Assembly: GCF_958304185.1 (NCBI RefSeq) | Contig: NZ_OY284437.1 | Span: 124,001-188,000, forward strand | Origin: an uncultured Erythrobacter sp. | GTDB lineage: Bacteria > Pseudomonadota > Alphaproteobacteria > Sphingomonadales > Sphingomonadaceae | DNA length: 64,000 nucleotides | Direction of reading: 5' to 3' | Part shown: in pieces, positions 23,653 to 32,704 of the stretch | How the letters are laid out: each line of letters starts with the position of its first letter | How positions within the stretch are numbered: position 1 is the stretch's first letter | Notes under the pieces: generated by a model | The model's database searches: none | What the model was told of the DNA's origin: nothing | What the model saw: only the letters and a program-made list of their open reading frames with translations | Program-made: the position numbers and the translations under genes

Positions 23653-24077
23653 ATCGATTTCCTTGGTTGGGCACATCGTGATTCGATAAAACCTCTCTAA
23701 TCCGATTCGCGGCATATCGTCAATCAATAATATTGAAAAACGATATTGCGCGCGTCGTTTTGCGGTAAGCCAAGCTGAAGAGCCCTACGGTCCGCCGCGC
23801 CTGCATTGACATCGCGCAGGGGCAATCCTACATCGCCGCCTCGCGCTCGCTTCGAGCAAGACCGATTCATGCGCGGGAACCGGTCTAGGAATGGAAGCAG
23901 CGACAGCCAGTTTCGCGACGCACTGATATGCTGCTGCCAGCACCGACCAGATGGGCGGGGTTGGGCAAGCAGCGTTTGTGCGTTGGAGAACGGCAGCTTT
24001 CCGCGTGGAACGATAGCGATATTCCCCGTCCGCGCGAGCCTCTCTCGCGTGGCCCAATCAAAGAGGCCTACTCCTCC
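23653..24077 (+). promoter_or_regulatory. rpoB promoter and leader region
   Basis: 425 bases without a convincing gene; overlapping frames on both strands lack recognisable products. TTGACA (23806-23811), 17 bases, then TACATC (23829-23834) is a plausible sigma-70 promoter, giving an rpoB leader of about 235 bases. The first 100 bases are AT-rich and probably contain the promoter of the minus-strand unit. Confidence 0.5.
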
Positions 24078-28277
<4,200 letters not shown>

Positions 28278-28284
28278 TTTGGGT

Positions 28285-28356
28285 GGTCGGCGTGCTGGAA
28301 CGGTAGACAGACGTCGGAGTGGACGAGGTTGTAGGTTCAAATCCTACCGCCGACCA
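28285..28356 (+). ncRNA. tRNA-like element between rpoB and rpoC, no anticodon loop
   Basis: Begins 8 bases after the rpoB stop. The acceptor stem is GGTCGGCG (28285-28292) with CGCCGACC (28348-28355), 8 perfect pairs. T8/G9 are at 28293-28294. A D-arm CTG/CAG with loop GAACGGTAGA (28295-28310) follows, as in class II (Leu/Ser) tRNAs. The T-arm is GTAGG-TTCAAAT-CCTAC (28331-28347), with a canonical T-loop. A28356 is in the discriminator position; CCA is not encoded. In place of an anticodon arm there is CGTC-GGAGTG-GACG (28312-28325), 4 pairs and a 6-base loop, then AGGTT. It cannot decode. It could be an RNase P/RNase Z processing signal in the rpoBC mRNA, a stable RNA, or a decayed tRNA; the perfect stems argue against decay. 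Confidence 0.75.
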
Positions 28357-28399
28357 ACCTGAAGCAATTGGAATATTCACCCCTCAGAGGGACTGACTC

Positions 28400-32704
<4,305 letters not shown>

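Follow-up and report, generated by a model that had tools for sequence, protein, structure and literature searches.

To our knowledge, few bacterial pseudo-tRNAs have been studied. Candidates for comparison include tRNA-Sec, which is marked by a long D-stem and a long variable arm, and the eukaryotic mascRNA and menRNA (RF01684), which lack a decodable anticodon. The latter are tRNA-like and cut from a longer transcript, according to a report on them (PMC9777231). In Bacillus cereus, another report describes tRNAOther as a pseudo-tRNA that stands outside translation and is found within a larger RNA (PMC3399842). For tRNA-Leu of E. coli, a review states that A73 and contacts between the D- and T-loops matter and that LeuRS still charges variants devoid of both the anticodon arm and the variable arm, whereas these shortened tRNAs are no longer leucylated when they carry C73; the anticodon arm is described as dispensable for charging but required for editing (PMC9976931).

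The tRNA-like element in the rpoB-rpoC spacer

The window analysed here is a stretch of 64,000 nucleotides from an uncultured Erythrobacter sp. (GCF_958304185.1, NZ_OY284437.1, positions 124,001 to 188,000), in which rpoB and rpoC are separated by a spacer of 122 bases. The initial annotation had placed a tRNA-like RNA devoid of an anticodon loop in this spacer, and all of the parts that it named are present base for base: the eight-pair acceptor, the five-pair T-arm with TTCAAAT, T8/G9 and the class II D-arm with GG can be read in the sequence, as can the four-pair stem and six-base loop that replace the anticodon arm.

23928..28277, forward strand: rpoB, as we take it to be from sequence and synteny; ORF of 1449 aa with the start codon as listed mechanically, C-terminal end translated
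28278..28284, forward strand: leader TTTGGGT, which pairs with the trailer at 28357-28363 (minimum-energy folds, outer-helix test)
28285..28292, forward strand: acceptor 5' strand GGTCGGCG, eight pairs with CGCCGACC
28293..28294, forward strand: U8/G9-type linker T28293/G28294 (sequence, tRNA-model alignment)
28295..28310, forward strand: D-arm CTG-GAACGGTAGA-CAG, 3-bp stem of class II type, loop GG at 28302-28303
28312..28325, forward strand: stub replacing the anticodon arm, CGTC-GGAGTG-GACG, four pairs and a six-base loop, 14 nt as compared to 17
28326..28330, forward strand: short variable region AGGTT (5 nt); the variable arm is longer in 18 relatives
28331..28347, forward strand: T-arm GTAGG-TTCAAAT-CCTAC, 5 bp with the loop TTCAAAT
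28348..28355, forward strand: acceptor 3' strand CGCCGACC; if the acceptor is read as 7 bp, C28355 becomes the discriminator
28356..28363, forward strand: bulged A28356 and trailer ACCTGAA, which pairs with the leader
28400..32704, forward strand: rpoC, ORF of 1434 aa, N-terminus translated; homologues in 379 of the 396 genomes of the order

Bases 28286-28355 match the Rfam tRNA model RF00005 with 42.7 bits at a cut-off of 29 (E 5.6e-8 when a stretch of 351 bases is searched and E 1.2e-7 genome-wide), the weakest of the 44 matches above the cut-off in the whole genome. This match is seen when the short stretch is searched and is missed by an Rfam scan of the whole window with default filters, and similar elements may therefore escape routine annotation; ARAGORN did not call the window's copy either. 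The same genome also holds a 53-base tRNA-like fragment (C1:1486667-1486719) that scores 24.1 bits, under the cut-off. In the tRNA-model alignment, the acceptor consists of seven pairs plus G28285-C28355, a -1:73 pair. While the T-arm and the elbow bases of the D-loop are intact, the usual 7-nt anticodon loop on a 5-bp stem is absent, and the stems that remain contain no mismatch. The folding energy of the 72-nt element corresponds to z -2.74 and that of the whole spacer to z -0.86 to -1.24 (two runs). In the minimum-energy fold, another hairpin takes the place of the weak 3-bp D-stem, and leader and trailer lengthen the acceptor by seven pairs (two of them G-U) around the bulged A28356, such that this outer helix starts immediately 3' of the rpoB stop codon. 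Since the search for promoters and terminators gave no match near the window's copy in the rpoB-rpoC spacer, it is probably co-transcribed with rpoB. All five tRNA-Leu isoacceptors are encoded elsewhere in the genome, which makes the element dispensable for decoding.

Several known RNAs share parts of this architecture. A kinship with tRNA-Sec or allo-tRNAs, whose geometry the initial annotation had likened to the 8+5 acceptor/T stack, is not supported: the 13 stacked pairs are present in the window's copy, but it has neither an anticodon nor a long variable arm, its D-stem comprises 3 bp, and the relatives described below follow a 7+5 model with a variable arm and a tRNA-Leu-like sequence. 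The eighth pair (-1:73) is possible in 9 of 18 relatives, and it carries little meaning because this frequency is near the random expectation (random letters give 6 in 16). An identity as tRNA-Sec itself was rejected on account of the absent UCA anticodon, the 3-bp D-stem and the 5-nt variable region, and tmRNA was likewise rejected, as it is absent from the ARAGORN and Rfam output for the window. The element resembles bacterial tRNA-Leu (RF00005) in its D-arm (GAA..GGTAGAC), 3-bp D-stem, T-arm and elbow bases and, in the relatives, in the variable arm. Unlike tRNA-Leu, however, the elements have no 7-nt anticodon loop, an anticodon arm of 14 rather than 17 nt and no encoded CCA, and the window's copy additionally lacks the long variable arm of tRNA-Leu type (AGGTT only) and the discriminator A73, which is C28355 in the 7-bp alignment. 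Among bacterial RNAs, tRNAOther is comparable in being tRNA-like and having no part in translation, but its anticodon is that for Trp, and it borders a genomic island in Bacilli (PMC3399842); mascRNA and menRNA are comparable as tRNA-like RNAs cut from a longer transcript (PMC9777231), but they are eukaryotic, and the window's copy scores only 16.9 bits with RF01684 as compared to a cut-off of 42.5.

Contents of the rpoB-rpoC gap across Sphingomonadales

The spacers considered come from the genomes with the closest RpoC and amount to 114 loci, of which 30 derive from the RpoC search, 80 were fetched and four (G149, G360, G267, and G276) were included for an actual or, in one case, a suspected hit. 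The end of rpoB is readable in 107 of these, the other seven being left out, and removal of five tRNA-like and three ORF-bearing spacers leaves a folding set of 99; the first 30 spacers were examined by eye and folding. Pairing starts at most 12 nt from the rpoB stop in 97/99 spacers, a count made without a shuffled control, and the folding energy reaches z < -1 in 77/99 and z < -2 in 52/99. For the G149 spacer, z is -0.82. The hairpins look unrelated to one another in sequence. The gap between both genes is usually structured and rarely translated; open reading frames were seen in G256 and G309 (L018, L020), where 132 codons overlap the rpoB stop at the start and the rpoC start at the end, and in G143 (L028), where 38 codons lie in a spacer that is also strongly folded (z -1.98). 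According to a simple text pattern, REP-like palindromes of the type CCCCTCCC...GGGAGGGG occur in 9/107 spacers (G138, G270, G259, G209, G174, G178, G175, G179, and G336), either replacing the usual hairpin or lying inside it.

The initial annotation had proposed to look for the element in spacers throughout the order. Among the spacers read, the tRNA-like element is not the usual content: 95/99 have an unrelated stem of at least 7 bp, as counted across bulges and without a shuffled control. The family model R2, built from seven elements, gave no match in the 80 fetched spacers and G276, and it gave a single match of 14.3 bits (E 0.33) in 80 named loci around rpoC (eight of them from Sphingomonadales, some with little upstream DNA). 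In the window, too, a stable stem starts close to the rpoB stop (within about 12 nt). The GC-rich hairpins and REP-like palindromes of sphingomonads are like the element in that they occupy its slot and begin at the rpoB stop, but they are unrelated in sequence and show no tRNA features in those searched.

Within this slot, tRNA-like copies are present in six genomes from four genera (the window's genome in g1, two in g27, one in g5, and two in g2). The five further copies (G149, G273, G267, G360, and G527) are tRNA-Leu-like and combine a variable arm with an anticodon loop of 4 nt. Of these, G273 was spotted by eye, whereas G149 and G360 were found by a T-arm-to-rpoC pattern that has matches in 46/396 genomes, four of them at rpoC (G000, G149, G273, and G360); the other pattern matches were set aside from their letters and, in the case of G262, G276, and G392, after fetching a stretch. 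The model R1, made from G149, G273, and G360, found G267 and the window's copy among the 396 genomes, and G527 was added by a genus search. Leader and trailer lengthen the acceptor helix in all six slot copies, each of which beats 94-99% of 300 shuffled flanks (0.007 to 0.057). The value is at most 0.05 in four of the six, two of those four stemming from one genus, and G149 and G273, which share a genus, are not independent. For 13 free copies outside rpoB-rpoC (see below), the corresponding outer helix reaches 0.05 or less in two, with three more below 0.1, and the contrast between slot and free copies is one of degree. We read the window's copy as an mRNA structure rather than as a tRNA gene.

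RNase P reads the acceptor/T stack and the elbow, both of which are intact here. It is conceivable, albeit unlikely in our estimate, that RNase P and a 3' tRNA nuclease cut the rpoB from the rpoC mRNA and thereby free the element, a processing signal that would fit the common slot in six genomes and the compensatory acceptor changes in the relatives. The pairing beyond the acceptor in all six slot copies should, however, hinder cutting, which counts mildly against such processing, and the same holds for the missing CCA directly 3' of the discriminator in the window's copy and in all 18 relatives, as compared to an encoded CCA in 34 of the 35 distinct tRNA sequences examined from the window's genome. 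Moreover, most relatives manage without any tRNA-like element in the slot.

Relatives, covariation, and free copies

When run over the 396 genomes, R2 ranks its own seven elements first by construction (80.7 to 100.9 bits), followed by matches of at most 68.7 bits. Among 20 new loci from these next matches (L197-L216), 19 were called tRNA-Leu by ARAGORN, as were L179, L182, and L186. The exception is the element of G308 (L207), which was accepted as a member by eye on account of its 4-nt loop; the R2 score separates members imperfectly because this element, at 65.6 bits, lies below a tRNA-Leu at 68.7 bits. Across eight member loci (L190-L196, L207), ARAGORN reported only that of G360, as tRNA-???. 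All numbers of elements are lower bounds, since the searches of the order scored the best 8 (R1) or 11 (R2) candidates per genome under strict filters.

The alignment of 18 elements, the window's copy excluded, points to selection on structure in every arm: 15 of 25 pairs are changed on both sides with 96.8% of the cells paired, and none of 500 shuffles of this model-fitted alignment scored as high on any of five measures. In the mini-anticodon stem, four of five pairs are compensated (98.9% of cells paired). A MAFFT alignment of seven elements, unfitted to the model, has 12/25 compensated pairs and 96.6% of cells paired; four of the five measures were reached by 0/500 shuffles and the measure "further pair types" by 128/500. 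The 4-nt loop is present in 17/18 rows as aligned, and G360 reads as 5+4+5 by eye. What looks like a small undescribed sphingomonad family of tRNA mimics is not described in the titles and opening abstract lines of the open literature matches listed (in part the best 10-20 of 24 to 235), a scope that excludes subscription papers and preprints.

The window's copy is an outlier, and its membership in the family is unproven. It scores 44.2 bits with R2, which is below ordinary tRNA-Leu (up to 68.7) and about equal to its score with the general tRNA model, a variable arm of the family type is missing, and its 14-nt anticodon arm is built as 4+6+4 instead of the usual 5+4+5. In a simple alignment that included part of the genome's own tRNA genes, it comes nearest to the slot copies of G149 and G360, while tRNA-Leu(GAG), tRNA-Phe, and tRNA-Val of its own genome are close behind. 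The shared slot, the outer helix, and the 14-nt arm favour kinship, and the element could also be a tRNA gene that was captured independently. The compensatory changes that had been put forward as a check are thus seen in the relatives, but for the window's copy no close relative to compare was found: by DNA similarity, the element occurs in one of 114 genomes of its genus, and the only other match, a weak one, is an ordinary tRNA-Met.

This narrow occurrence would also suit a relic, that is, a tRNA gene or copy that landed in the spacer and decays there with no function beyond its stable stems, as would the loss of the variable arm and of A73 and the failure of ARAGORN to call it. The flawless pairing of the remaining stems and the many compensatory changes in the relatives speak against decay, and a decaying insert would rarely be expected in one slot across several genera, so that we regard a relic as rather improbable.

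The relatives also bring to mind a non-decoding leucine acceptor, in which LeuRS would charge an RNA without an anticodon and the leucyl-RNA would be used or titrated outside translation. A73 is present in 14 of the 18 relatives (G in two, C in one, U in one), A14 in all 18, GG at 18-19 in 17 and TTC in the T-loop in 18, and truncated tRNA-Leu of E. coli is still charged according to the review cited above (PMC9976931). The window's copy has C73, however, and should not be charged, given that C73 abolishes leucylation according to the same review (PMC9976931); two relatives with G73, one with U73, and one with C73 add to this, and CCA would need to be added post-transcriptionally. While the 13 free copies fit a leucine acceptor best, we consider it distinctly unlikely as an explanation of the window's copy.

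The 13 free copies bring the total, together with the six slot copies, to 19 genomes; G281, G316, and G044, for example, hold an element of the family type away from rpoB-rpoC. At E 1e-18, the element was found in 11/121 genomes of the genus of G360, nine of them with it outside rpoB-rpoC, and in 2/11 genomes of the genus of G273, with a single match in each positive genome of both searches. A class-wide search at the same threshold, which was run without a positive control, covered the variable-arm form only and would miss the window's own element, gave 0/157 genomes (at least three from the order). The 13 loci (11.6 to 16 kb each) have no neighbouring gene common to many of them: a simple ORF picker found only two common ORF families, each shared by 2/13.

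Taken jointly, the 48 bases upstream of the free copies yield 16.6 bits as compared to a mean of 12.7 (sd 0.53, maximum 14.1) in 100 single-base-shuffled sets, with blocks of ATT near -36 and TG.TA near -15 to -11, as expected of a promoter of sigma-70 type. Part of this signal is the half-palindrome GAAAnCGGACATT, which is repeated beside several free copies (e.g., L299, L304, L305, and L307) and could account for a portion of the -35 region. Scoring of single sites was mostly unremarkable, with 2/13 free copies at 0.01 or below. These upstream sequences are suggestive, though not proof, of promoters of their own, and the free copies are probably genes of their own. A free non-decoding RNA, as envisaged in the initial annotation, fits the 13 copies outside rpoB-rpoC and, given the lack of a promoter or terminator match, probably does not fit the window's copy.

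Alternatively, the element could act at the level of DNA, as an attachment or recombination target or as a small mobile tRNA-like unit whose landing sites occasionally include the rpoB-rpoC gap. Free copies that are alike at unrelated loci, with only the two ORF families each common to 2/13, are consistent with this, as are altered copies on two Sphingomonas paucimobilis plasmids (L297 6001-6067, L298 3001-3067), which have a hypothetical protein on one side and a Fic family gene on the other and are unannotated in the plasmid table, and the position of the G549 copy adjoining a conjugation coupling protein gene. Yet no integrase or transposase was found among 30 neighbouring proteins scanned (10 of the 30 being without a Pfam match), each positive genome of the two genus searches holds one copy at E 1e-18, and both the compensatory changes and the promoter-like signal point to an RNA product, leaving a DNA-level element highly improbable. 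A phage origin found no support: a blastn comparison of the G316 element with 50,697 phage records gave no match, and of two sequence patterns run on viral contigs one gave zero matches and the other four, which by eye resemble chance hits. The window's element has two short partial matches to plasmids in unrelated bacteria.

A proposed structural plug in the rpoBC mRNA and its wider meaning

The explanation that we favour, to which we assign roughly even chances, is that of an mRNA-embedded, tRNA-derived, non-decoding RNA, akin or parallel to the sphingomonad group, that serves as a structural plug between rpoB and rpoC. It builds on the fold, the family and its compensatory changes, the slot, and the extended helix as they can be read from the sequences. 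The window's element would be a tRNA-derived (probably tRNA-Leu-derived) RNA built into the rpoBC mRNA and unable to decode, and would have originated within, or in parallel to, the small group of tRNA-Leu-like RNAs with an anticodon arm cut to 14 nt. There, it would occupy the slot that is usually held by a strong hairpin, with leader and trailer lengthening the acceptor helix. Because of this slot, its most likely job would be to fill the untranslated gap as a compact plug resistant to nucleases, which may protect the 3' side of rpoB, and thus stabilise the mRNA, and keep the ribosome-binding region of rpoC apart.

Several points run counter to such a plug. The outer helix separates slot from free copies in degree only, the kinship of the window's copy with the family is unproven, and by folding energy the spacers are often only mildly special. 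Moreover, a generic hairpin would not require the T-loop, the elbow bases, and the mini-anticodon stem to be conserved, and the tRNA shape may therefore have a role of its own. In a broader and more tentative idea, which we hold at well below even chances, the elements could be natural tRNA-Leu mimics that have lost the anticodon loop by selection, have mostly kept the features for LeuRS and the elbow, have their own promoters, and occur once per genome, bearing leucine or titrating tRNA proteins outside translation, with one branch captured between rpoB and rpoC, which would link the tRNA machinery with the synthesis of RNA polymerase.

Across species, one and the same slot of an mRNA has different contents, namely a hairpin, a REP-like palindrome, a tRNA mimic, or an ORF, and owing to these varied contents the role of the slot is testable by swapping. 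Beyond this locus, a family that covaries in each arm without a decodable loop would represent a natural test case for functions of tRNAs without decoding, such as leucylation without editing, binding to tRNA enzymes, or the processing of mRNA.
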